Shown: positions 2,658 to 32,823 of the stretch, one piece after another
How positions within the stretch are numbered: position 1 is the stretch's first letter
Layout: the number at the start of each line of letters is the position of its first letter
Origin: a virus
Reading direction: 5' to 3' (one strand)
IMG/VR virus record: IMGVR_UViG_3300036770_004592
Location: 1 to 32,823 of that record
Length of the DNA stretch: 32,823 bases
Made by a program: the position numbers and the translations under genes
The notes under the pieces: model-generated
Told to the model about the DNA's origin: nothing
The model's input: the letters and a program-made list of their open reading frames with translations, nothing else
Database searches by the model: none

Positions 2658-3542
2658 ATGAACACAGAAGCCGCATTAAGCGATAACTCCAATACAGTTC
2701 TTGGATCTATCCAAGAAGAAACTACAAATACACAACCTACCCTACCAGTAGATCCCAATGCACCCCCTGCGAACTCTTTTATAGAGTTGCTAAATGGTGA
2801 TGCTTTTGTTGATAACTGGGCTGAAAAACTACCTGGAGAACTTAAGGAGTATGCCAAGACTCTATCCAAGTTTAAAACACCTGGTCAGTTAATGTCATCA
2901 TACGCATCATTAGAGAAAGAGTTCTCTAAGAGAAGCGGAGAAGCAGTAAAAATGCCCGGTGATGATGCTACTGATGAAGATTGGCAAATGTATGCTAAGA
3001 AGATAGGTGCACCAGGTAGAGATGACTATAAAATCACTAAGCCTGCTGATGTTCCTGATGAACTATTCAACAAGGATTTAGTAGATAAAACAGTAGATAT
3101 TGCCGCAAAGTATGGTATTCCCAAAAAGGCAGTAGATGAATTAGTTGGTGCTTACAGTGAAAATCTTACTGGAATGCTACAGGATGAGTTAGCAGCAGAG
3201 ACCCAGGCAATAGAACAAACTGTAAATGCCTTAAAGGCTGAATATGGTGCTAATATGAGTTCTCAAATACAAAAAGCTCAGAGAGCAGCTGCAGCTGTAG
3301 GATTAGATGTAAATGATCCTATGATTGGTAATAATATTAGTGTAATCAAGGCACTTATTAAGGTAGATGAACTAATCTCTGAGGATAGTCTTAAGATACC
3401 AGGTACTACTGTCAATGATACCTATGAAGAAGCATATAACAAACTTCTCAAATCTGATGATTATCTTGGTAAGAACGGTACTAAGAAGCAACTTGAGGCA
3501 GGAGAGAAGTTAAAAGGTCTCTGGAATGCCATGAATAGTTGA
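2658..3542 (+). CDS. Capsid assembly scaffolding protein
   Basis: A 294-aa acidic, mainly helical protein directly upstream of the major capsid gene, where T7-like phages encode their scaffold (T7 gp9 is 307 aa). It has a disordered acidic N-terminus (about 1-35), a segment about 45-130 with TPGQLMSSYASLEKEF and GAPGRDDYKI that is typical of podovirus scaffolds, a long helical region about 165-235, and a short lysine-rich C-terminus (KKQLEAGEKLKGLW), the part that binds capsid subunits in characterised scaffolds. No promoter-like motif stands before it, so it is probably co-transcribed with the portal and the small genes. Confidence 0.85.
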   Translation: MNTEAALSDNSNTVLGSIQEETTNTQPTLPVDPNAPPANSFIELLNGDAFVDNWAEKLPGELKEYAKTLSKFKTPGQLMSSYASLEKEFSKRSGEAVKMPGDDATDEDWQMYAKKIGAPGRDDYKITKPADVPDELFNKDLVDKTVDIAAKYGIPKKAVDELVGAYSENLTGMLQDELAAETQAIEQTVNALKAEYGANMSSQIQKAQRAAAAVGLDVNDPMIGNNISVIKALIKVDELISEDSLKIPGTTVNDTYEEAYNKLLKSDDYLGKNGTKKQLEAGEKLKGLWNAMNS

Positions 3543-3713
3543 ATTTAGTTTTAGCAGACTACTAAATAATATCAAAGTGCCTGCTTAGCAGGGAACGCTT
3601 TTACCTTCGAACCTTAGGCCCGTTAGGGGAACCAAAAGTAGAAGTCAACATCATATAACCAAAATGTCGTAGACATTAATCTACAAACCTTAACAAATAG
3701 AAAAAACACTACA
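3543..3713 (+). promoter_or_regulatory. Intergenic promoter and structured leader of the capsid gene
   Basis: This 171-bp stretch carries no ORF. ACTAAATA (3561-3568) is followed by a predicted start near 3574, giving a leader of about 140 nt. It is the only motif copy upstream of a protein gene that is not close to a start codon. The leader can form a hairpin CCTGC-TTA-GCAGG (3580-3592) near its 5' end and another, GTAGA/TCTAC (3669-3684), about 30 nt before the capsid ATG; between them lies a G/C-rich stretch. The leader may stabilise the abundant capsid mRNA or control its translation (inference). Confidence 0.55.
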
Positions 3714-4607
3714 ATGTCACTTACAATAGACCAGTTTTATCCTAATCAATATCAAACCAATGTTGATTTGGCTATCCAACAGCTTGAATCCAAGCTTCAG
3801 GGTGCGGTTACTCGTGAGGATTTCGAAGGTAAGCGTAAAGCGTTCAACCTTTTAAACTCTCGAGCTGCTTCACTTATATCGGCGCGCAAGCAATCCACTC
3901 CTAACAATGACCCTTCTCTCGAGAAGTATTGGCTCACTCAGAATAGTTATCAAGTTACCGAAACTCTTGATGAGTTCGATGACTTCTACCTTGCGCAAAT
4001 CGTCCTTCCGACCTCTCCTATGGTCCAAAACTTTGCTGCCTCCTTTAACAGGACTGTTGACGATGTTATCATCGCTGCTGTTGACGGTGTTCGCTTAGTT
4101 GGTGAAGATGGCACGACCTCTTCTCAACTTTCCTCCTTCAATGGAGATTCTCAGCGCATTGCTGTTGATTATGTTGAAAGTGGTTCTGCTGTTTCCAGCG
4201 GATTGACCATTGGCAAACTTCGGCAAGCCTCTTACCTTCTTGATGCGCAGAACGTCCCTGAGGACGACCGCTACATCGTTGTTGGGCCTGCTCAGAAGAG
4301 AGACCTCTTACGTGCTGGTGAAATCGGCGATGCTGATTACAACACTGTTCGCGCGCTCGTTAATGCGGAAATCAATACCTTCATGGGCTTCACCTTCTTG
4401 CATTCAACTCGCCTTGGCACCAGTGGTGGCAACAGAAAGGTTCTTGTATTCCATCGCACTGGAGTTAAGTTCTCTCTTGGTCAGCGTAAGAGTTATATGG
4501 ATATCCGTCCTGACCTCTCGCACGCCTTGACTGTCCGCTCCACTATGGCGCTTGGGGCAGTTCGCACCGAAGACGAGAAGGTAGTCACCATTGCTTGCGC
4601 AGAGTAA
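3714..4607 (+). CDS. Major capsid protein
   Basis: A 297-aa protein placed after the scaffold, with the features of an HK97-fold podovirus capsid: a short N-terminal arm (MSLTIDQFYPNQY), an early coiled segment about 45-65, an A/P-domain-like central region with ESGSAVSSGLTIGKLRQA, and a late P-loop/E-loop type region LVFHRTGVKFSLGQRKSYMD. The C-terminus ALGAVRTEDEKVV is typical of such capsids. Its base composition differs from its neighbours: it is richer in G+C, and most Arg codons are CGN where other genes use mainly AGA. That fits strong expression or a different origin. Its mRNA has its own promoter-like motif and a long leader, and transcription probably ends at 4905-4938. Confidence 0.9.
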   Translation: MSLTIDQFYPNQYQTNVDLAIQQLESKLQGAVTREDFEGKRKAFNLLNSRAASLISARKQSTPNNDPSLEKYWLTQNSYQVTETLDEFDDFYLAQIVLPTSPMVQNFAASFNRTVDDVIIAAVDGVRLVGEDGTTSSQLSSFNGDSQRIAVDYVESGSAVSSGLTIGKLRQASYLLDAQNVPEDDRYIVVGPAQKRDLLRAGEIGDADYNTVRALVNAEINTFMGFTFLHSTRLGTSGGNRKVLVFHRTGVKFSLGQRKSYMDIRPDLSHALTVRSTMALGAVRTEDEKVVTIACAE

Positions 4608-4939: not shown

Positions 4940-4952
4940 TATAAATAGATAT
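4940..4952 (+). promoter_or_regulatory. Promoter-like motif TATAAATA before the GIY-YIG gene
   Basis: TATAAATA (4940-4947) is identical to the T4 late promoter consensus. It is followed by GATAT and ATG 4953 and starts 2 bp after the T-run of the terminator. The endonuclease gene is therefore wired into the phage's own expression programme. Confidence 0.7.
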
Positions 4953-5522
4953 ATGACTGGGATTTATATTATTACCAACAGGCATACATTAAAGAGATAT
5001 GTTGGGCAATCAAAGAATATAGAGACAAGATTAAAATCACATTGGAATTCTCTATTGAAAAACAAACATATAAATCCTTACTTACAAAGTGCCTATAACA
5101 AATATGGTAAGGATGCTTTCATTGAGACTATTGTAGAATGCTCGGAGGTTGAACTTACTGCTATGGAGCAGTATTTTATTGATGTATGGTGGAAAACTGG
5201 TATTCTATACAATATTTGTAGAAAAGCAGAAGTCCCTCCAGCCTCCTGGGGCAGAAAGTATAAACACTCTGAAGAAACTAGAGCTAAGATGAGCGCTGAT
5301 CGCAAGGGCAGAATTCCTTGGAATAAGGGTAAAAAAATGCCTCCAGGTACTGGAGCAAAAGTAAGTGCTAAAAATAAGGGCAGAACTGCTTGGAATAAAA
5401 GTAATGCTTGGGATAGGGTTGATGAGATTAAAAAAGATAGACTTGCTGGATATACCCATTTAATGCTCTGTAAGAAATATAAATGTGGTTCTGAAACTAT
5501 AGGCAAAATCTGCCTCTCATAA
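4953..5522 (+). CDS. GIY-YIG homing endonuclease with NUMOD3 and C-terminal HTH
   Basis: A 189-aa free-standing homing endonuclease of the T4 Seg type. The nuclease domain occupies about 1-90: GIY at 3-5, YVG at 16-18, Arg26, His30, Glu72 (metal-binding Glu, in MEQYFIDVWW), and YNI near 86-88. After it come two NUMOD3-like DNA-binding repeats (about 98-150; SEETRAKMS and GRIPWNKGKK, then GRTAWNK), and a helix-turn-helix-like end (about 150-189). That end resembles the end of the second GIY-YIG protein at 26173-26661. It sits between the capsid operon terminator and the tail genes with its own promoter-like motif. It would cut an allelic site in competitor genomes and spread by repair. Confidence 0.92.
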   Translation: MTGIYIITNRHTLKRYVGQSKNIETRLKSHWNSLLKNKHINPYLQSAYNKYGKDAFIETIVECSEVELTAMEQYFIDVWWKTGILYNICRKAEVPPASWGRKYKHSEETRAKMSADRKGRIPWNKGKKMPPGTGAKVSAKNKGRTAWNKSNAWDRVDEIKKDRLAGYTHLMLCKKYKCGSETIGKICLS

Positions 5523-6146: not shown

Positions 6147-9100
6147 ATGGCTGATTTGCAACTATACCAAAACCGAGTAAATGGAGGCGAGATTTCACCT
6201 CAGCTCGAAGGACGCGTCGATAATGAGCGATACAATTCTGGAGCTAGACTTCTAGAGAATTTTATTGTAAAGCCTAATGGTTCTATATCAAAGAGACCAG
6301 GTACTCAATATCTTGCATCATTAGGAGATACAGCAGGTAGACTTGAAACATATCGTGCTGATGAAGAGACTAACTTTATGTTAGTTTTTACTCCCTCTGC
6401 TTGTAGAGTATACAATACATCTGGAACTGCGGTAACTACTACATCAGGTGTTATGGATATAGCGCCTATACAGTGGTTTTCTGACCCAACAAATTTAATT
6501 TGGTTTACTCAAGAGCTAGTTTATTCGCCAACAGATAATAGATATTATAAAAGATTTCTTGGATCTGCCAACGTTCCTGATCCTGCTAAAGGCGGTACCA
6601 GTTATGATCAATATACATTTCAACCAGGAGAAGTTGTTCTTTCTGGTTCTGCTCCTGGGAGAGCATTTAAAGCTAAAAGCGCCTTTACAGATTATGCGCC
6701 ATTAACTAATACAGAATTCTGGCAAGAGCTTGAAAATGTAGCTCAAACACCTGCACCGTATTATACGGAAGAGTTTTACGACGACATTTGGACTCCTTAT
6801 ACCGCTGATGAAATATTCGAAGTTCAAACAACTCAAATTAATGACCTGCTATTTTGTGCTCATAAAAACCATAAACCACTAATTATAGCACGGGATGGTG
6901 ATGGTAAATGGAAGAGCTACTATACTAATTTTACATTCGGGGCTGGAACCGATTATAATACAACTTCCAATACCTTAAAAATACAGCCTATATTTTCTGA
7001 ATGGGATAAAGACGCTGCTGTATGGGGATTTACAATTGCAGGTTGGCCGACATATTACGAAAATGATTATGTAAAGTATGCGAATTATTTTTACAGAGTT
7101 AAAGCTGATCACACACTTGATGGCTTAAGTGCTTTCTCTGCTTTATCAGCAACATACTATGAATTAGTTGAATACTATATCGATGATAAAACGTATAATA
7201 GTAATGATTTAGTATATACATCAAAAACCAACCATACCCCTGTAACTGCAACTAATTCCGAATTTGGTGAACCTGGAATTACAACTGGTGCCTGGTCTAA
7301 CAATTGGAGTGTAGGCTATACGAACACTGTTTATACAAGTTGGCAAAGATGTTTTTACGATCCTTGCACACCGTATTATGTAAATGACAGAATAACACAT
7401 AATGGAGAAAATTATAGGTGTATCTTACAGCATACGTCTAATAATTATAGGTTAACTGAACCCGGTGTTGGAGAAGAATGGTATACATATTGGGAATTGT
7501 TGCCTAAAACTGTCTCTAAGAAAGGTGCGGATGAATATTATCTTGTAAGTAATAATTCTTTATTTACACAAGATAGTATTAACGATGAAATACAGGTCGT
7601 TATTAATCAACCTAATAATGTTGGATCGATTAATATCGGCACAATGGCTACAGATTCTACTTCTGCTACTGATTCATACTTTTATCAAGGGGATTATATT
7701 GTTTCAACTTCTTGGACTGTTGGTAATGCTCTCTCTGGAGGTTCTACTATACAAATACAAGAATCTCTCGATAACATAAACTTCCAAACCATACGCGAAT
7801 GGAATTTTGATGGTAATAAAGTATCTAATAACATTTCCTTCACTGGTGAAACTCCATCTACCGGCGCTTGGTATAAGGTAATAATAAATAAAATAGGTGT
7901 AGGGGGAGCAGGTGCTCTGACTCTCGAAAATGTAATTAACACAACAACATTTAATTGTAGAGTTATAGAATACATAAGCCCAATTAAGGTTAGAGTAAAA
8001 ATAAAAGCTGGTAATACTGAAATTATACCTACAAAAGCCTGGAATATACCAACTACAGTATATAAAGAGTCAGCATTCTCTGTGAAAAACGGTTATCCAA
8101 GCACAGTAGCATTTCACGAACAAAGACTTTGGTTTGGTGGTGTTTCAAAATTCCCAGGGAGAATATGGGGATCTGCGAAGAATAGATTGTATGACTATAG
8201 AACTGGTGTACTTGATACAGATGCTATTGATATTACTATTGCTTCTAAATCTACTAACCAAACTTCGTGGCTACAATCTATAAATAGAAACCTCGTTGTT
8301 GGTACTGCAGGTGAAATATATACAATTGATTCAGGATCAACTTCGTCTAACATTACCCCTACATCGGTAAGAGCTCAGCTTAGAACGTCAATGGGTTCGT
8401 CAACTATACCAGGAAAGGTTGTTGGGGATTCTATATTGTTTATTCAGACTGGATCAAACAGATTGAGAGAGTTTATATATACCGATCAGACTGATTCGTT
8501 TATTGCGCCTGATCTTAATATAATGGCTGATCATATAGCTGAAGATAAGTTTATACAAACCGCTTATCAATCTAATCTTGATCAGACCCTCTGGATTGTA
8601 AATAGTAAAGGAGCTCTTCTCGGGTATACATTTGACTTTACTGAAGGTGTTGGAGCCTGGCATAGACATTTTACAGGCTCGCGCTCTGACTTCTATGGAG
8701 TATCTGGCACACCTTCGGTTTATGATAATGTTATTGGTAAACCAGATATGTTTACGAGTGTTGCTACTCTTAACCCAGAAGGTCAATCACTAACCGATCA
8801 AGTTTGGTTTATTGTTAAGCGCTGGGTCAATGGCCAATATAAGTATTTCATCGAAAGATTCGATCCTACTAATATGGATTTCATATTTGGTAGTAGTGAT
8901 TCTACAGTAGAGAGATGGAGATTTATTGACTCGTATAGAGAATATGATATGTCGAATCCTGATGATACGGGAACTGAGTCTATCGGTGATGACACTTACA
9001 ATTATAATCTGTTTTATTCTCACTTAAACAGTGGAACTACTATGTATATTCTTTCAGCTGGAGGTACGGGCTGGAATGATTTTTATGGTGATCCAGGAGG

Positions 9101-21232: not shown

Positions 21233-22149
21233 TGATTCGAGGTAGACCTATTATAAAGGATAGCTTAAGGAGTAATATTAACACCTCTCCTATTATTGCC
21301 CCATACTTGCGCCAAAACAACTCTACATTATATAATAACACAGTGGAAGATAAAGAATTAATTGTACATCATCTTGAAAATAGAGCATCAAAGAGCAAAA
21401 AAACTTTGATATATTATACTGTTTTTGGTTCAGTTTATAAAGAGATATTCGAATATAGTTTAAAATCAGTAAGATATTTTTATCCAGAAGCAGATATAGT
21501 TTGTATTTCCGATCAAACAGATTTACCGGTAGACACACTATTACAAGCGCCTGTAGATGATTTTATACAAGCCTCAATGAAGAAGCTTGATATATTTTTA
21601 GCATTAGGAAGTAAAATTTATAATTACGATCAGGTGTTGTTTCTTGATGCTGACGTGTTAGCTATTAAACCGTTAAACTTTTTAAACGGTAAAGCTACTA
21701 ATAATAAAATAGAAGTAGTCAAATCAGGTCAATATAGTAATATTAATCCTGAATCGTTTGTAAATCACTTTCACGGTATTAATCTACCGCTTAGTGATAA
21801 ACAAAAGAAAGATATAATAAAAAAGAAAATTATGCCATTTAATGCTGGGCATTTCTTGTTTACTCCAAACAAAGAATTAAAAGACGATTTTGATAATATT
21901 CGATGGCTAAGTAAAATTTGGCCTGGAGATTATTTTTATGAACAAGGGTTCATGAACTACTATTTTGGCATTGTAAAACAGAGTGTATCATATAAAGTTT
22001 TAAATCCTAATGTAGAGTTCTGTTCGCTTAATAAAGGAGAAACCCCAAAAGGCAACCGCGCTCTTATTCATTTTATCGGATCGCAAATTACTCCCGAAGT
22101 TAAACTCAACGCTATGAAAAATGCCTACGAGCGATTTATACAAGGTTAA
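21232..22149 (+). CDS. Glycosyltransferase, GT8/glycogenin-like
   Basis: A 305-aa protein with a GT-A type fold after about 55 extra N-terminal residues. KTLIYYTVFG (57-66) is the first strand, YSLKSVRYFYPEADIVCISD the nucleotide-sugar region, and FLDADVL carries the Asp-x-Asp metal-binding triad at 139-141. FNAGHFLF and the late segment DYFYEQGFMNYYFG fit the acceptor-side motifs of GT8 enzymes. The N-terminal extension could dock it to the neighbouring surface proteins. It starts on the stop of the preceding gene (TAATG) and overlaps the sulfotransferase gene by 29 bp. It could decorate virion proteins or host surface glycans. Donor and acceptor cannot be read from sequence. Confidence 0.83.
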   Translation: MIRGRPIIKDSLRSNINTSPIIAPYLRQNNSTLYNNTVEDKELIVHHLENRASKSKKTLIYYTVFGSVYKEIFEYSLKSVRYFYPEADIVCISDQTDLPVDTLLQAPVDDFIQASMKKLDIFLALGSKIYNYDQVLFLDADVLAIKPLNFLNGKATNNKIEVVKSGQYSNINPESFVNHFHGINLPLSDKQKKDIIKKKIMPFNAGHFLFTPNKELKDDFDNIRWLSKIWPGDYFYEQGFMNYYFGIVKQSVSYKVLNPNVEFCSLNKGETPKGNRALIHFIGSQITPEVKLNAMKNAYERFIQG

Positions 22150-22642
22150 CTTTATACACATTCCTAAAACAGCAGGAACGACTATAGAGAAATATATTGG
22201 AACTGCTACACTCGAAGAGGGATGGCAAAACTGTTATGATTCACCTCAGCATCGATTTGCTTCTGAGTATCCAAAAAATAATTATTTTACCTTTACTGTA
22301 GTTCGTAATCCATATGATAGAATAATATCTGAATATCATTGGAGAAACGTAGACGAAGATGTAAACGATTTTGTTGAAAGAGCTATATATACAGCAGATA
22401 ATCCAGAGTGGGATAGACATATATTACCACAATCAAATTTTGTTGATGTAGATGGGGTTAAAGTATTTAAATATGAGAACATCAACGCGCTGTTTACTAT
22501 TTTAACGGGACTTATAAGCTATCCCATTCCCCGCGCTACTCCTAAAATATATGAGAAGTATATTTTAAACACAAGCAGTGTTGAGCTTATTAATGAGTTT
22601 TATAATGAAGACTTTAAACGGTTCTCGTATAATAAACTCTAA
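22121..22642 (+). CDS. Sulfotransferase (PAPS-dependent, Sulfotransfer_2-like)
   Basis: A 173-aa compact sulfotransferase. FIHIPKTAGTT (11-21) is the 5'-phosphosulfate-binding loop, and VVRNPYDRIISEYHW (60-74, Arg62 and Ser70) is the 3'-phosphate-binding motif. FVDVDGVKVFKYENI and the C-terminal ELINEFYNEDFKRFSY are usual for this family. It is shorter than most relatives (about 200-250 aa), mainly in the middle. It overlaps the glycosyltransferase by 29 bp, so a sugar is probably added and then sulfated, or both enzymes act on one polymer. The start at 22121 gives residues before the IPKTAGTT loop as in relatives; no better start is visible. Confidence 0.9.
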   Translation: MPTSDLYKVNFIHIPKTAGTTIEKYIGTATLEEGWQNCYDSPQHRFASEYPKNNYFTFTVVRNPYDRIISEYHWRNVDEDVNDFVERAIYTADNPEWDRHILPQSNFVDVDGVKVFKYENINALFTILTGLISYPIPRATPKIYEKYILNTSSVELINEFYNEDFKRFSYNKL

Positions 22643-25607: not shown

Positions 25608-25733
25608 ATGCCACTCAAAAAAGGAAAATCTAAAACAGTTCTCAATGCTAATATTAGAGAGCTAATGAAGTCAGGAAGACCTCAAAAACAAGCTGTAGCT
25701 ATAGCACTACAAGCTCAAAAGAAATCAAAGTGA
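25608..25733 (+). CDS. 41-aa basic protein of the MPLKKGKS type (DUF6496-like)
   Basis: A 41-aa Lys-rich protein: MPLKKGKSKTVL, then NIRELMKSGRPQKQAVAIAL and a Lys-rich end. Tiny proteins with this pattern (PxKxGxSxxxxxxNIxxxxxxGxPxxQAVAIAL) are widespread in phages and some are grouped as DUF6496; their function is not known to me. It starts 1 bp after the membrane protein stop and its 3' end overlaps the convergent gene on the minus strand by 9 bp. Confidence 0.85.
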   Translation: MPLKKGKSKTVLNANIRELMKSGRPQKQAVAIALQAQKKSK

Positions 25734-26171
25734 TTCTCTAATTGCTCGAACGAGGAATAGAATCTTTACTGCTCCACTGTAGCGTAGATCGAGAATAATA
25801 TCTCCAGCAACATCTACAAGCTCGGATAAGCAATCTGTAGAGATTTCCTTATAGTTTTCATCTACTATATACAGATCGTCTGACGTAATTCCAAATAGTG
25901 TAGAATTATTCATACGAACATAATCAAGGATTTTGTTATAATCCTGTATTCTATCAGGTGTAGATGCGCAGGTTTTCTTAAACTCATTAATAATATCATC
26001 AAGATTATCCTGAATGCCATTAGAAATAATAAGACTAAGCCGATTACAAACCGGCTTAATCTTAACTTTTCGAAGCAAAATAGGTTGTGAATACTTCCTT
26101 TTACGGAAGAGATTAACCATATCTAACTTTTCGACATATTTTTTTATTACTTCAATATAAAGAGCATCCAT
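25725..26171 (-). CDS. Hypothetical protein downstream of the second GIY-YIG gene
   Basis: A 148-aa protein read leftward. ATG 26171 lies 1 bp after the stop of the GIY-YIG gene, so the two form an operon. In-frame upstream ATGs (26222, 26357) would overlap the endonuclease gene and are less likely. The N-terminal half is basic (NLFRKRKYSQPILLRKVKIK), and the C-terminal half is acidic and helical with a hydrophobic end (AVKILFLVRAIRES). No motif recognised. It may be a passenger of the homing element or an older resident interrupted by it. Confidence 0.7.
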   Translation of the reverse strand: MDALYIEVIKKYVEKLDMVNLFRKRKYSQPILLRKVKIKPVCNRLSLIISNGIQDNLDDIINEFKKTCASTPDRIQDYNKILDYVRMNNSTLFGITSDDLYIVDENYKEISTDCLSELVDVAGDIILDLRYSGAVKILFLVRAIRESL

Positions 26172-26172
26172 T

Positions 26173-26661
26173 TCATCTATTGGTAGCTTCCAGGATCCTC
26201 CAAACTGTTGTATATGATGCATTAAGTCGTGCTGCAATTTCTTTGAGCTTAAGGCCTTCTTCATATCGCAAACGGCGAATTTCCGATATTCTTTCCCATG
26301 CATCAGAAGATCTTTCCGAAATCCTTTTCCTGTCAGTGTAGTAGACGTTATAGACATTATAATCTGTATTTATGTCAATAGTGACTTTTTCGACGGAACT
26401 TAGGTATTCTTTCATAACAGGCCAATATGTAATGGTAAATTTATTTATTCCGTGCTTTTTATAATCGGAGAGCATTTCCTTAGGAAATTTAACTCCCCGT
26501 CTTAAGCAGGACTTGCTATACATAATGCGCGTATAAAGTTCTTTCGAACTTCCAACATAAACTCTACCATTTTTATTATTTTTAATAATGTAAACAGCCG
26601 AGATTTTCGGTAAAGTCTTATAGTTTACCGCTGACAAGGGGATTGTAGTTGTGTTATTCAT
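26173..26661 (-). CDS. GIY-YIG family homing endonuclease with C-terminal HTH
   Basis: A 162-aa leftward gene. The nuclease core is at about 19-105: AVYIIKN (22-28, in place of GIY), YVG at 35-37, Arg45, then a helix and the segment DYKKHGINKFTITYW. The expected catalytic Glu is probably Glu84 in YLSSVEKVTIDINTDYNVYN, with the Asn of the family at NVYN. Residues about 118-162 are a helix-turn-helix of the type EGLKLKEIAARLNASYTTVW. This end resembles that of the endonuclease at 4953-5522 (AWxRxxEIxxxR...), so the two share a DNA-binding module. The start has a CTAAATA motif upstream on the same strand. Confidence 0.88.
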   Translation of the reverse strand: MNNTTTIPLSAVNYKTLPKISAVYIIKNNKNGRVYVGSSKELYTRIMYSKSCLRRGVKFPKEMLSDYKKHGINKFTITYWPVMKEYLSSVEKVTIDINTDYNVYNVYYTDRKRISERSSDAWERISEIRRLRYEEGLKLKEIAARLNASYTTVWRILEATNR

Positions 26662-26736: not shown

Positions 26737-27165
26737 ATGTTACAACACCCTGCTACGATTTTACTTTACGGGAATATAGATGAAAGGATGTCTTTATTTT
26801 TTCTAAAAGAGATGAGACGCTTACATTTACACAAAAATGTATTGGTTAGGATTAACAGCTATGGAGGTGATTTGCTATGTGCACTTAGTATTATTAATGT
26901 TATGAAACAGCACAGAGGCCACGTTATAACGCTAGTTGATGGATTTGCTGCGAGCTCAGCATCTTTGATAGCAGCGTCTGCGCAAGTGAGATTTATGCAC
27001 AAGACCTCTTTTCAGCTAGCACATAAAGTAGTCAACGACTGCCCTGCAAATGGGCCAATCTTTAATAGCGTTATAAAAAGCATTTATAAAGAGGACATCC
27101 CAGAAGATAGATGGCTTACTGCTAGTGAATGTTTTGAGTATAGGATATGTGATAAAATCATCTAA
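26737..27165 (+). CDS. ClpP-like serine protease
   Basis: A 142-aa protein with the crotonase/ClpP fold signature: LYGNIDE at 10-16, VRINSYGGDLLCAL at 37-50 (ClpP has INSPGG), GFAASSASLIAAS at 69-81 with Ser73 aligned to the nucleophile of GxAASMG, and FQLAHKV at 92-98 with His96 aligned to the catalytic His. The C-terminus EDRWLTASECFEYRICDK matches the ClpP end that holds the catalytic Asp. It is shorter than ClpP (about 195 aa), with trimmed N- and C-termini. It could be the head maturation protease, since no other prohead protease is visible, although T7-like phages need none; or it could replace or hijack host ClpP (inference). Confidence 0.87.
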   Translation: MLQHPATILLYGNIDERMSLFFLKEMRRLHLHKNVLVRINSYGGDLLCALSIINVMKQHRGHVITLVDGFAASSASLIAASAQVRFMHKTSFQLAHKVVNDCPANGPIFNSVIKSIYKEDIPEDRWLTASECFEYRICDKII

Positions 27166-27630: not shown

Positions 27631-27643
27631 CTTAAATAAGTAT
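27631..27643 (+). promoter_or_regulatory. Promoter-like motif CTTAAATA before predicted RNA 2
   Basis: CTTAAATA (27631-27638), spacer AGTAT, predicted start at A27644. The five spacer bases and following A look just like those before start codons elsewhere, although no ATG follows. Confidence 0.58.
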
Positions 27644-27744
27644 AGCTGAGGATATCTCAGTATTAGTTTAGGGGGCGCAGTCAATCAACTCTGTTTTATA
27701 ATTTAGTTTGATGCTCATTCACTCAGACTGCGCCCCCTTTTTTT
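27644..27744 (+). ncRNA. Predicted small structured phage RNA 2
   Basis: About 100 nt with no credible ORF. A 5' hairpin CTGAG-GATAT-CTCAG (27646-27660) is followed by a long stem GGGGGCGCAGTC/GACTGCGCCCCC (27671-27682 with 27726-27737). Inside its 43-nt loop an ATCAA/TTGAT pair can form, and ATTCACTCA, also present in RNA 1, is exposed. Seven T end it. CTCAG in the loop (27722-27726) repeats the 3' arm of the 5' hairpin, so an alternative pairing is possible. Confidence 0.6.
27671..27744 (+). terminator. Rho-independent terminator-like stem of predicted RNA 2
   Basis: A 12-bp perfect GC-rich stem followed by seven T. The 43-nt loop is unusually large for a simple terminator, which supports a structured RNA. 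Confidence 0.8.
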
Positions 27745-27754
27745 GTTCATTGCT

Positions 27755-27910: not shown

Positions 27911-28921
27911 ATGAACATTAAACCCAGAATCATAAACAGAGATATAATACAGTTTTCTTGTGGTAAGAAAAAAAGAGAAGAGCTTTGTGGATCACTTGGC
28001 TCCAAGTTAGGAGTAGCATTTTTTGATATTGCTAACTTGTCAGATAGCTATATGTCCTCAAATATATGTGGTGAGAATAGGAAACCCTATTGTAAAACAG
28101 CAAATATAGCACCTAGAGACTTATTTGCCTTCTATCAATATACAGAACACCCTGAGGATGAAAGGGTTATGATTAAAGAGGATTTAACTGGTCCTAGTAA
28201 AAGCAAGAATAAAAAGAATTGGAAGTTTATATGGGTCAAGCCTATTACTGAAACTGATGAAGAGATCCTCAATATCCTAATTACCTGGTTGACAAATAAG
28301 TTCCAAGATGAACTCACCGAAGGTGAATTTAATTACAGCAATACATCTTGTGATAGAAAGTATCATCCATTACAAAATATGCCCTCTACTGTTAGAAATG
28401 GAGTGTTCAAATCCAAGGGCTATGATGGTAAGTTTGATGTTAAATCCTGCTTACCCACTACAATGGGTCAAGTTGCAGGTGAAGAATGGGATGTAAATAC
28501 TGTAGATTACATAGCAGAACAGCTAGGAGTTGAGAGAAAACTTGCAAAATTAGCAGTAAACAGTTCATTCTATGGAGCAACATTAACAGCATTTTCATCT
28601 GTTCTGAGATTACTTGACTTCAATGATGCTTGTACAGTACAACTTATAAGAGTTAGCCCTATTTTTATGAACACCAAGAAAAAGATTAATAGAATCAGAA
28701 AAGCAACAGGGCTAGATAAGGATTTTAATGCTTATTTTAGAGTAGAGAGACAAATAATAGAGTGCATTGAGGCATATATCAAAGCAAAAGGTGGTAGAGT
28801 TTTCACAATCCATGATGGAGGCTATTGTGATATAGAACTTGATAGGGCTGATTTAGAAGAACATGTGTTTAACCAAACAGGCTTTAGATTACAAATAGAA
28901 GTTTCACCCAATGACTACTGA
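27911..28921 (+). CDS. Miniature polymerase-like protein (family A DNA polymerase / single-subunit RNA polymerase motifs)
   Basis: A 336-aa protein with the palm/fingers motifs of the Pol I-T7 RNA polymerase superfamily in order. CDRKYHPLQNMP at 147-158 resembles the pre-A element (GR...PNLQNIP of Pol I). FDVKSC at 175-180 gives the motif A Asp176. ERKLAKLAVNSSFYG at 208-222 is an exact R-x3-K-x7-YG O-helix (Arg209, Lys213, Tyr221, Gly222). FTIHDGGYCD at 298-307 is motif C with Asp302, ending 34 residues later as in Pol I. The residues after HD are GG, not Glu (Pol I) or Ser-Phe (T7). It is far shorter than T7 RNAP (883 aa) or a Klenow-size core (about 600 aa), and I see no exonuclease or T7-like promoter-binding domain. 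It might be the phage transcriptase, a replicase or a primer-making enzyme. Activity is unproven. Confidence 0.75.
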   Translation: MNIKPRIINRDIIQFSCGKKKREELCGSLGSKLGVAFFDIANLSDSYMSSNICGENRKPYCKTANIAPRDLFAFYQYTEHPEDERVMIKEDLTGPSKSKNKKNWKFIWVKPITETDEEILNILITWLTNKFQDELTEGEFNYSNTSCDRKYHPLQNMPSTVRNGVFKSKGYDGKFDVKSCLPTTMGQVAGEEWDVNTVDYIAEQLGVERKLAKLAVNSSFYGATLTAFSSVLRLLDFNDACTVQLIRVSPIFMNTKKKINRIRKATGLDKDFNAYFRVERQIIECIEAYIKAKGGRVFTIHDGGYCDIELDRADLEEHVFNQTGFRLQIEVSPNDY

Positions 28922-29703: not shown

Positions 29704-29939
29704 TGAAAAAAATACCTGAATGTTGGCAGAGTAGATATTTAAAGGGGGTATTAAGAGTTGATCCAGAGAGAGATGTATCAGCTAATGTAGCCTCTAAGAT
29801 CTTTAATAAAATAGAAGAGTATGTTTTAAGATTAAACCTTGAAACAATTATGCTATCTGTAGGTACGCCTGTTAGAAGCAATTTATGTAATGAAGTGTAT
29901 TATAAGTTCCGATACAATTCTGACATAAATAAGGTATAA
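29703..29939 (+). CDS. 78-aa hypothetical protein in the lysis-region gene run
   Basis: A 78-aa protein with overlapping start (TAATG) and overlapping stop (TAATG at 29937), so it is translationally linked on both sides. MKKIPECWQSRYLKGVLRVD, then a helix (ASKIFNKIEEYVLRLNLETI) and a basic end. No membrane segment. No endolysin motif is visible. Confidence 0.62.
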   Translation: MKKIPECWQSRYLKGVLRVDPERDVSANVASKIFNKIEEYVLRLNLETIMLSVGTPVRSNLCNEVYYKFRYNSDINKV

Positions 29940-30175
29940 TGAAATATTCAGATCTACCTAAAATTATTAGACCAGCAGGCTTAGTTGTAGTTTTACTTTC
30001 GTATATTACAGTCTGTATATTATCACTATTTGTTTTACCTCTTGATCGTGAATCTATTTTTGAAACAGTCATAGACTCACTACTTACTTTAACTATAACT
30101 TGGTCTTCATTGTATATTGCGAGCCGAGGAGTAGAAAAAAGTATATCAATTTCCAGGAATTCTAATCAGAGCTGA
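29939..30175 (+). CDS. Holin-like membrane protein
   Basis: A 78-aa protein with two hydrophobic segments, about 12-33 (AGLVVVLLSYITVCILSLFV) and about 44-62 (VIDSLLTLTITWSSLYIAS), joined by an acidic turn, and a basic end with SRGVEKS. The layout and the Arg-Gly-x-Glu-Lys end resemble the GTA-type/3TM holin group (PF11351-like). It would form the pore that triggers lysis. The stop TGA (30173-30175) overlaps the next GACTAAATA motif. Confidence 0.68.
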   Translation: MKYSDLPKIIRPAGLVVVLLSYITVCILSLFVLPLDRESIFETVIDSLLTLTITWSSLYIASRGVEKSISISRNSNQS

Positions 30176-30187
30176 CTAAATAAAAAC
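30174..30187 (+). promoter_or_regulatory. Promoter-like motif GACTAAATA before predicted RNA 3
   Basis: GACTAAATA (30174-30182) overlaps the holin-like gene's stop codon (TGACTAAATA). The predicted start is G30188, the first base of a perfect hairpin. Confidence 0.62.
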
Positions 30188-30290
30188 GGATAAGAGCTGT
30201 TTCTCTTATCCGGTATTAAGCATAAGTTCTATCAAATCGTTACTCATATAGGGACCCTCATCAGCAAGTCTGATGAGGGTTTCTCATTTT
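30188..30290 (+). ncRNA. Predicted small structured phage RNA 3
   Basis: About 100 nt without a credible ORF. The predicted first base opens a perfect 9-bp hairpin GGATAAGAG/CTCTTATCC (30188-30196 with 30203-30211). A 42-nt unpaired stretch follows, then the terminator ACCCTCATCAG/CTGATGAGGGT (30254-30264 with 30270-30280) and TTCTCATTTT. The terminator stem resembles that of RNA 1 (CCCTC..ATCAG). It separates the lysis run from the terminase operon. Confidence 0.6.
30254..30290 (+). terminator. Rho-independent terminator before the terminase genes
   Basis: An 11-bp perfect stem with a 5-nt loop followed by a T-rich tract (TTTCTCATTTT). It ends RNA 3 and any read-through from the holin-like gene. 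Confidence 0.85.
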
Positions 30291-30299
30291 GTAAGTATA

Positions 30300-30311
30300 T
30301 TAAATAAAAAT
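30300..30311 (+). promoter_or_regulatory. Promoter-like motif TTAAATA before the small terminase gene
   Basis: TTAAATA (30300-30306), spacer AAAAT, ATG 30312. It decides this start over the in-frame ATG at 30273, which lies inside the terminator. Confidence 0.62.
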
Positions 30312-30734
30312 ATGAGCCTTGGTAAAAAGATAACTCCTGCTGATGAATATTTTGTCTCCCTTATGACAGAAGGTCATATTAAACCGATGGAGGCCTATTT
30401 GATGGCTTTTCCACATTATAAAGAGAGAAAAGATAGCACAAACAATACAGAACTGTGCTACTATCTTAAGAGTCCTAAAATCTCTGAGATGCTTGAAGAG
30501 TATAAAGCACAGGTTCGTGAAAAATCTGTAATGTCTGTAGAGTTTATGCTTGAGAAACTTAGAGAGTTTGTTACAGACGAGAGTGTTCGCACTAATGACA
30601 AGATAAAATCTATGGAACTCGCAGGAAAACTGCAAGGTTTATATACACAAAAAGTGCAACATTCGGGAGGTGTGGAAGTATCCCATAATATTACACCAGA
30701 AATGGCGGCGGCCGTAGATGAATTATTGCGATAA
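30312..30734 (+). CDS. Terminase small subunit
   Basis: A 140-aa helical protein directly upstream of TerL. The N-terminal part (about 9-50; ADEYFVSLMTEGHIKPMEAY) is the DNA-binding HTH-like region, the middle holds SPKISEMLEEYKAQV, and the C-terminal half has the typical TNDKIKSMELAGKLQGLYTQKVQHSGG followed by a short acidic end. It would recognise the packaging site and recruit TerL. Start chosen by the motif 5 nt upstream. Confidence 0.85.
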   Translation: MSLGKKITPADEYFVSLMTEGHIKPMEAYLMAFPHYKERKDSTNNTELCYYLKSPKISEMLEEYKAQVREKSVMSVEFMLEKLREFVTDESVRTNDKIKSMELAGKLQGLYTQKVQHSGGVEVSHNITPEMAAAVDELLR

Positions 30735-30746
30735 TCCGTAATATGG

Positions 30747-30759
30747 TATAAATATTAGT
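30747..30759 (+). promoter_or_regulatory. Promoter-like motif TATAAATA before the large terminase gene
   Basis: TATAAATA (30747-30754), spacer TTAGT, ATG 30760. Confidence 0.68.
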
Positions 30760-32364
30760 ATGTCTGATATACTTCCAAGCAATCCATTCCTTCCAAAACT
30801 GCAAGACCAGAAGTGGAGACTTAATAACTTCTACACAATCATCCCAGAGACTCCTGTTGATGGTCAAACGATTATACCATTTAAACTAAGAGAGGCACAG
30901 GAGGAGTTATTGGATAATCTACACAATAGAGTAATCATAAACAAATGCAGAAAGATTGGCTACTCTACACTATTGGCTCTATTATGTTTGGATAATTGCC
31001 TATTCAACAAGAACTATAAAGCATCAGTATTGGACTACAAAGAAGTATCTGCATATGATAAGTTGGAGATGCTCCGTGTTGCCTGGTATAACTCCGAGAA
31101 GTATGCTGAAAATCAGGCAATCAGGTCAATGTGGCAATACATAAAAGGTAAAATACATCTTGTATCTGAATCCAAAGGAGAACTAAAATGGTCCAATGGG
31201 TCCTCTTTTACAGCCTCGACCACAACGATGGGGTCATCACCTAACTTACTCTGGATATCTGAGCTTGGACCTCTAAGTGTTCACGCACCAGATAGAGCAG
31301 CAAAGATAAAAAGAGGTTCTTTGAACTCTGTAGCACCAGATGCGCAGTTAATAATAGAATCTACAGCAGAAGGCGCCCATGGAGTATTCTATGATCTATT
31401 ACAATTAGGCCTAGAGTCATTAGGTAAAGATAGACTTGAAAAGACTGAGTATAGACTCATTTTCAAGCCATGGCAGCTACACCCTTCTTACAAAATAGAT
31501 AATGCTAATCCTGAATTAATAGAAGAGTCTACATGGAAGTATGCTGAGGAACTAAAAAAATCGCACGATATTGATTTAACAGTAGATCAGCTGTTTTGGT
31601 ATCAGATTAAGCGTAAAGAGATTGGTGAGGATATATTCTCACAGTTCCCATCTACATTTGAAGAGTCTGTATTAACATCTTCTACTGGAGCAATATATCC
31701 GCAGATTATATCTCTTAAAACGCAAGGGAGAGTAAAAGAAATAGAGCATGAGCCTGAATACCCTCTTTATACAGCATGGGATTTGGGTATATCAGACACA
31801 ACAGTAGGTATACTATTTCAAGAATGCGGTAGAGATATTATTATTCATGATAGCTGGTCTACAACTGGTGTTGGTTGTGAACATGTATCGAATAAGATAA
31901 CAGAATGGGAACGAGAATATAATACAAATATAACAAAGAACTTCCTACCCCATGATGCTGGTAGAAGAGACTTAGGCTCTGGTAAAACATATGTTGAGCA
32001 ATTAACTCAAGCTGGTACATTTAGGAAGTCTATATATGTTCTACCTCAAACCAGTAGTGTATGGAACGGTATTAGGCATTGGAGACAGTTATTCCCTAGG
32101 CTATGGATACATCCGAGATGTAATAATCACTATACAGGTATAGATGGTATTACATTGCCAAGCTTAATGGATTGTATTGTTAATTATAAAAAGAACGAAA
32201 AGACTGGACAGCCCTTACATGATCTTTATTCTCATGGCGCTGATGCCTTTCGTTATATTGCTGAAGCTCATATATTAGGATTATTCCAAGGATCTAATGG
32301 AGACATTCAGAGAGCTAAAATACGCAGATCTACTAAGCAATCAGGAGATTTTGTATTAGCATAA
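30760..32364 (+). CDS. Terminase large subunit
   Basis: A 534-aa packaging motor and nuclease. ATPase: a Walker A-like loop at 62-70 (KCRKIGYST, the deviant RxxGxST form of phage terminases) and a Walker B at 163-168 (LLWISE, Glu168), with a coupling-type TTTMGSSPN just before it. Nuclease: TAWDLGISD (Asp341), LPHDAG (Asp399) and SHGADAFRY (Asp495) form the RNase H-like metal site. Length fits T7 gp19-type enzymes (about 585 aa). It has its own promoter-like motif and lies 25 bp after TerS. Confidence 0.93.
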   Translation: MSDILPSNPFLPKLQDQKWRLNNFYTIIPETPVDGQTIIPFKLREAQEELLDNLHNRVIINKCRKIGYSTLLALLCLDNCLFNKNYKASVLDYKEVSAYDKLEMLRVAWYNSEKYAENQAIRSMWQYIKGKIHLVSESKGELKWSNGSSFTASTTTMGSSPNLLWISELGPLSVHAPDRAAKIKRGSLNSVAPDAQLIIESTAEGAHGVFYDLLQLGLESLGKDRLEKTEYRLIFKPWQLHPSYKIDNANPELIEESTWKYAEELKKSHDIDLTVDQLFWYQIKRKEIGEDIFSQFPSTFEESVLTSSTGAIYPQIISLKTQGRVKEIEHEPEYPLYTAWDLGISDTTVGILFQECGRDIIIHDSWSTTGVGCEHVSNKITEWEREYNTNITKNFLPHDAGRRDLGSGKTYVEQLTQAGTFRKSIYVLPQTSSVWNGIRHWRQLFPRLWIHPRCNNHYTGIDGITLPSLMDCIVNYKKNEKTGQPLHDLYSHGADAFRYIAEAHILGLFQGSNGDIQRAKIRRSTKQSGDFVLA

Positions 32365-32383: not shown

Positions 32384-32823
32384 ATGGCGACCGCACTTTC
32401 ACAAAATGTTCAAAATAGGCTTGAGTTTACCCCGGTAACACCTATGCAGACTGCTACCCCGGCTAAACCAGCTAAGAAGCCTAAGCCAGCTAAAGCAGCG
32501 ACTCAATCTACTACACTTAATAAAGGTTATCCTATGCCGGACTTTGGCGAAGAAAATCTAGTAACTATAAGTAGAGGTTTTCGTGTTCCCTGGTATAAGC
32601 TTGACGAAGATAATCCTATTTTCAGACAAAATATGGCTGAGCTTGCTAGACTTCAGAGACGAGCTAATAGACAGGAAGAAAGAGAAACAGTAAGAACTGA
32701 AAATAAGCCAATGACTGCTACTGTTCTTGGTGAGGGTGGTACTCCCGCTGAAACAGCTCCTACTACCGCTACCACTAACAAGCCGACTAAAACTACTACT
32801 ACCAGCACAGGCCCAGGGACAGG
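32384..32823 (+). CDS. 5' part of the Lys/Pro/Thr-rich protein; continues at base 254 of the window
   Basis: ATG 32384 begins a frame that runs off the window end. Since 32571-32823 equals 1-253, it continues to the stop at 480-482. The N-terminus includes a Lys/Pro/Ala segment (AKPAKKPKPAKAA) and then ENLVTISRGFRVPWYKLDED, the best candidate for a folded part. The function is unknown; the TerL-portal position suggests packaging or head assembly. Confidence 0.82.
   Translation, partial: MATALSQNVQNRLEFTPVTPMQTATPAKPAKKPKPAKAATQSTTLNKGYPMPDFGEENLVTISRGFRVPWYKLDEDNPIFRQNMAELARLQRRANRQEERETVRTENKPMTATVLGEGGTPAETAPTTATTNKPTKTTTTSTGPGT
32571..32823 (+). repeat. Copy of bases 1-253 (end overlap of the contig)
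   Basis: All 253 bases match the window start except G126/A32696. This shows that the sequence closes on itself, with a unit length of 32,570 bp. It could be an assembly overlap of a permuted genome or a true terminal repeat; raw reads would tell. Confidence 0.97.

Follow-up and report, generated by a model that had tools for sequence, protein, structure and literature searches.

Background

In phage lambda, pR'-tR' (6S RNA) is the classical promoter-terminator pair used in late antitermination. Packaging sites (cos or pac) are often found in or beside the gene for the terminase small subunit, terS. Packaging of the phi29 type involves a short phage RNA, the pRNA (Rfam accession RF00044), and operates without TerS. 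Late promoters of the T4 type depend on gp55, and the form described for phage Aeh1 is CTAAATA, starting from -12 (PMC1524935). Other phage-encoded small RNAs have been reviewed (PMC12197685), and include Hfq-binding and antisense RNAs.

We analyzed a stretch of viral DNA of 32,823 nucleotides (hereafter, the window), in which sequence evidence supports the presence of a late-expressed, short noncoding RNA unit at positions 30174-30290. The predicted RNA resembles lambda 6S RNA in that it is a short late-region RNA that extends from a promoter to a nearby terminator upstream of late genes. However, the genes downstream of it, unlike those downstream of lambda pR'-tR', appear to carry their own promoter-motif sites, and no Q-like gene was recognized among the genes scanned. 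With phi29 pRNA it shares the property of being a short phage RNA, here beside packaging genes, but in contrast to phi29 both TerS (phrog_51) and TerL (phrog_2) are encoded, and the RNA is predicted to comprise ~100 nt with two simple hairpins. Its putative promoter has the same core as T4-type late promoters, at roughly -12 to -6, and likewise occurs strand-specifically ahead of head and tail genes. Unlike T4, however, the genome is of podovirus type and only 32.6 kb, the spacing would often place the transcription start on the ATG, giving leaderless mRNAs, and no gp55 was recognized. Finally, as with the reviewed small RNAs, this would be a short noncoding phage RNA made in infection, here predicted from sequence; RNAs that bind Hfq and antisense RNAs are among those reviewed, whereas no significant target of the predicted RNA was found within the phage.

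If confirmed, this would be a late noncoding RNA locus kept in position beside the terminase genes across diverged phages, and an example of a 32.6-kb podovirus whose T4-type late promoters yield mRNAs apparently without leaders. Position 30188 provides a precise site at which to seek the RNA in infected cells or virions.

Results and discussion

Source genome and relatives

The ends of the contig form a 253-base repeat with one mismatch, and a gene that begins at 32384 runs on in frame across this repeat to 482. Both features would fit a genome of 32,570 bases that is circular or circularly permuted. As the sequence of a self-closing contig, the window does not fix the physical genome ends or, with them, the place of any cos or pac site. 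Among phage records, the capsid protein has its best match in Pelagibacter phage HTVC028P (39% identical); the promoter-motif pattern described below is absent from this phage, the nearest isolate by major capsid protein (MCP). Close relatives were found neither by megablast against phage records nor in species genomes, and searches of IMG/VR with TerL, TerS and the exact promoter-hairpin DNA pattern recovered no relative. A search with the TerL core identified one informative contig, IMGVR_UViG_3300020043_007451 (32,115 bases; hereafter L011). A TerL alignment search returned only this same contig and distant TerLs, and the motif pattern is absent from the loci of the latter. In L005 and L006, two IMG/VR fragments at 88-90% capsid identity, gene starts are again preceded by the motif; both fragments end short of terS. 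The comparison at the terS locus thus involves a single relative, a small sample that is the main limit of our argument.

No replication genes were recognized among the genes scanned in the window, a 32.6-kb self-closing contig, or in the L011 contig. The occurrence of T4-like late promoters without a recognized replication gene might reflect unrecognized genes, a missing part of the genome, or functions supplied by the host or a helper.

Organization of the locus

The predicted features of the locus, all on the plus strand, are as follows.

29939-30175, +: open reading frame (ORF) of 78 amino acids with hydrophobic stretches, ending in a TGA that overlaps GACTAAATA
30174-30182, +: T4/Aeh1-type late promoter core GACTAAATA, at positions -14 to -6 relative to the predicted start
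30188-30290, +: predicted short noncoding RNA of ~97-103 nt, its start taken from the promoter register and its end from the terminator
30187-30212, +: 5' hairpin of 9 bp plus one flanking pair, with loop CTGTTT
30250-30284, +: intrinsic-terminator-like hairpin of 15 pairs, with an imperfect U-tract after it
30300-30306, +: TTAAATA, a likely separate terS promoter 5 nt before the ATG, one of 12 TAAATA-N5-ATG sites
30312-30734, +: terminase small subunit (terS), likely start ATG 30312 (phrog_51, E = 1.2e-9)
30760-32364, +: terminase large subunit (terL) (phrog_2, E = 1.4e-15)

The TGA stop codon of the 78-amino-acid ORF contributes its last two bases as the first two of the promoter core. At the other end of the unit, the terS ORF as defined by its first ATG (30273) would begin within the terminator; we take 30312 as the likely start. 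A promoter-like site precedes terL at 30748, and terS, terL and most late genes in the window have motif sites of their own. Since terS has its own promoter-like TTAAATA beyond the terminator, the unit at 30174-30290 looks self-contained.

A T4/Aeh1-like late promoter motif

The sequence GACTAAATA occurs eight times on the plus strand of the window and never on the minus strand, compared with 0.47 copies expected from dinucleotide shuffles. Similarly, 12 sites of the form TAAATA-N5-ATG are present, in comparison with 0.8 expected, and the minus strand has none. All 13 copies of CTAAATA lie at gene borders, and 10 of them sit 5-8 nt before a start codon; the other three are in the MCP leader (3562), in RNA 1, another predicted small RNA (27490), and at the 30174 site. 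Both core forms of the T4-type late promoter, TATAAATA and CTAAATA, are present in the window, and in predicted register as well as sequence the motif matches the published Aeh1 form. Applied to the 30174 site, the Aeh1 register of CTAAATA predicts a start at 30188, which is 6 nt past the motif and the first base of the 5' hairpin. For many late genes, the predicted start coincides with the A of the ATG, and their mRNAs would thus be leaderless. Searches of the window and L011 for a gp55-like sigma factor by tblastn and phmmer gave only matches at chance level (best E values, 1.3 and 0.43).

We also considered TAAATA as a translation signal, and rejected that as the principal reading, since TAAATA is missing from about half of the gene starts. 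Moreover, the spacing varies in L011, and at corresponding positions both phages have copies with no start codon close by; these positions include the capsid leader, the stretch before an ORF of 336 (window) or 372 (L011) amino acids, and the region before TerS. Shine-Dalgarno matches of at least 4 bases were found at 2 of the 30 window starts and at none of the 18 in L011, operon-internal genes included, and the host may not rely on this signal. As almost no gene in the window has a Shine-Dalgarno sequence, we dropped its absence at terS as an argument.

The predicted RNA and its hairpins

The preliminary description, which was made from the sequence alone, reported that the motif is followed at +1 by a perfect 9-bp hairpin, and this was confirmed: the stem GGATAAGAG-CTGTTT-CTCTTATCC is perfect over 30188-30211. 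A tenth pair is formed by C30187 and G30212, although C30187 is just outside the predicted RNA. On the minus strand, this hairpin together with the promoter complement can be read as a terminator (CGGATAAGAG...CTCTTATCCG TTTTTATTTA). An A/U-rich linker of ~40 nt separates the 5' hairpin from the terminator, whose core, CCCTCATCAG-CAAGT-CTGATGAGGG, is a perfect stem at 30255-30279. This terminator had been called strong, an assessment that the 15-pair stem bears out and the U-tract does not: the latter (TTTCTCATTTT) is imperfect, so the designation rests on the stem. Between its predicted start at 30188 and the terminator stem, the RNA contains none of the triplets ATG, GTG and TTG, and thus no protein-coding start.

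Only five distinct hairpins in the window have a perfect stem of 9 bp or longer and a loop of 3-8 nt (0-3 in ten shuffles), and the 5' and terminator hairpins are the only two of these five that are not dominated by A/T. The fold of the entire predicted RNA has a free energy of -36.7 kcal/mol (z = -5.7); upstream of the terminator, too, the RNA is more stable than shuffled sequences (z = -3.4). No credible match to the RNA was found in Rfam. The terminator stem was previously likened to that of RNA 1, and this likeness is visible (CCCTCATCAG versus CCCTCTATCAG), but upstream of the terminators the two RNAs show no significant local similarity (p ~0.1). The linker stretch TCGTTAYTCATAT is common to RNA 1 and the RNA at 30188 in 12 of 13 positions; similarity among RNAs 1-3, of which the RNA at 30188 is the third, is not significant.

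Comparison with a related phage

The TerL proteins of the window and L011 are 60% identical overall. Upstream of TerS, L011 has a corresponding layout (6423-6570), in which GACTAAATA at 6423-6431 is followed by ~90 nt of noncoding sequence, a terminator and TerS. The GACTAAATA copies of the two phages align at this locus, the L011 terminator before TerS is strong (AGTCCGCTTGGTGTCTGTATCAAGCGGACTTTTTTTG), and the L011 TerS gene has its own ATAAATA-N6-ATG in the same place as TTAAATA of the window. We regard this layout as the strongest evidence for a short-RNA unit, and the earlier proposal of a noncoding unit that runs from a promoter to its own terminator is well supported, by this layout among other evidence. 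Past the promoter, no convincing alignment of RNA sequence was obtained between the window and L011, and the part of the L011 unit that precedes the terminator does not exceed shuffled sequences in stability (z = -0.4). As these two results leave no feature inside the RNA shown as conserved, it is the promoter-terminator unit that, as judged from the sequences, is kept between the two phages, and the 5' hairpin is not.

Possible functions

Our best guess is that the locus specifies a trans-acting small RNA. That is, a stand-alone late unit would make an RNA of ~100 nt that likely works in trans as an ordinary small RNA, a reading that we favor tentatively and with somewhat less than even confidence. 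Under this model, the T4/Aeh1-like late promoter would direct transcription from ~30188, the hairpin terminator would end the RNA at ~30284-30290, and terS would then be transcribed separately from TTAAATA at 30300. The 5' and terminator hairpins would shield the ends of the RNA, and late in infection the ~40-nt A/U-rich linker could act in trans, either base-pairing to an RNA of the host or phage or serving as a protein-binding site. Both the sequence and its comparison with one relative back the promoter, the terminator and a distinct promoter for terS; we infer that the unit is transcribed, where the RNA begins and ends, and that its linker acts in trans. A search for antisense targets in the phage yielded none that is significant (p = 0.14 genome-wide; p = 0.75 for gene starts).

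The preliminary description saw no other clear purpose for such a unit, which is too strong a statement, given the lambda pR'-tR' (6S RNA) precedent and the ability of a promoter-terminator pair to insulate. Insulation is the chief rival, and we consider it somewhat unlikely: the terminator would stop transcripts of the small genes in the lysis run, the short RNA from the promoter would be a by-product with no function, and the conserved entity would be the break between the lysis-run and packaging modules rather than an RNA. The recurrence of promoter and terminator in L011 without the RNA sequence or the 5' hairpin favors such a break, and the loss of RNA sequence similarity fits it equally well; elsewhere in the window, a terminator-like hairpin (GAGCCTGGGCTCTTTTTG) stands directly before TATAAATA at 4941, with a gene at 4953. 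However, a terminator alone would be enough for this purpose, leaving no need for the best-consensus late promoter that is kept in both phages, and the 5' hairpin of the predicted RNA stands out in this genome. It is unlikely that the unit is instead an attenuated leader like lambda pR'-tR', at which a phage factor would permit late read-through into terS-terL and the head genes. The order of promoter, ~100 nt, terminator and packaging or structural genes is that of lambda, and is the same in L011; moreover, as Shine-Dalgarno sequences are nearly absent genome-wide, a missing one at terS is no argument against read-through. Yet terS, terL and most late genes in the window, and terS also in L011, appear to have motif sites of their own, so that read-through is not needed, and a Pfam and PHROGs scan of genes, many without any family match, turned up no Q-type antiterminator.

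The position beside TerS had also led to the idea of a role in packaging. The location holds, directly upstream of terS in two phages, and would suit an RNA, or an element of the gap DNA such as a cos or pac site, that works with the terminase. Location is all that speaks for this reading, which is very unlikely: the gap sequence past the promoter is not conserved between the window and L011, TerS and TerL are both present, unlike in phi29, and the Rfam model of phi29 pRNA (RF00044) finds no match in the window at its gathering score, and none in the 3.9-kb locus even at E <=10. A broader proposal seems to us very unlikely: a new kind of phage RNA, linked to the terminase genes in a clade of small podoviruses, that is made late from a T4-like promoter, acts directly in packaging or in the late switch, and is kept by position and not by sequence. 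Least probable of all is that the motif and hairpins coincide in this gap by chance. The minus-strand terminator reading and the imperfect U-tract do leave parts of the unit ambiguous, but the motif and hairpin statistics and the matching layout in L011 argue against coincidence.

Other leaders, RNAs and genes

The MCP gene is preceded by a leader of ~150 nt after a late-promoter motif (window, 3560-3714; L005, 1557-1728; L011, 12740-12940). By eye, a short stem with a GAA bulge covaries in these three phages (GUG-CCUGC..GCAGG-GAA-CGC, GUG-CCAGA..UCUGG-GAA-CGC and GAG-CCAC..GUGG-GAA-CUC), and a conserved GTAGACA...TCTACA lies further on. The window copy of this leader has no credible match in Rfam.

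RNA 2 (27643-27745) is complementary to the start of the 336-amino-acid ORF (27911) just downstream of it (GTGAATGAACATTAAAC). The complementarity score of 31.5 was reached by 1 of 500 shuffles, a figure that is uncorrected for the five RNAs tested. In L011, a hairpin unit without a clear U-tract (3328-3412) occupies the place of RNA 2. The ORF itself (window, 27911-28921; L011, 3459-4577) matched no family, and the structure model of the 336-amino-acid protein was too poor to use; its DVKSC and (I/M)HDG sequences recall motifs A and C of PolA-type polymerases.

On the minus strand, a gene for a protein of 207-210 amino acids is found at the same place in the window (25725-26357) and in L011 (1607-2230), with 21% identity. 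No family match was obtained for the protein, the structure model of the 210-amino-acid form was too poor to use, and profile searches of PDB sequences with this and the 336-amino-acid protein gave chance matches only. The gene adjoins that of a homing endonuclease, and its L011 product has zinc-ribbon-like cysteines; we list the protein as a candidate late regulator. Several further genes were noted among the late genes.

4953-5522, 26173-26661 (minus strand), 22121-22642 and 26737-27165: GIY-YIG homing endonuclease genes, a sulfotransferase-like gene and a short ClpP-like protease gene
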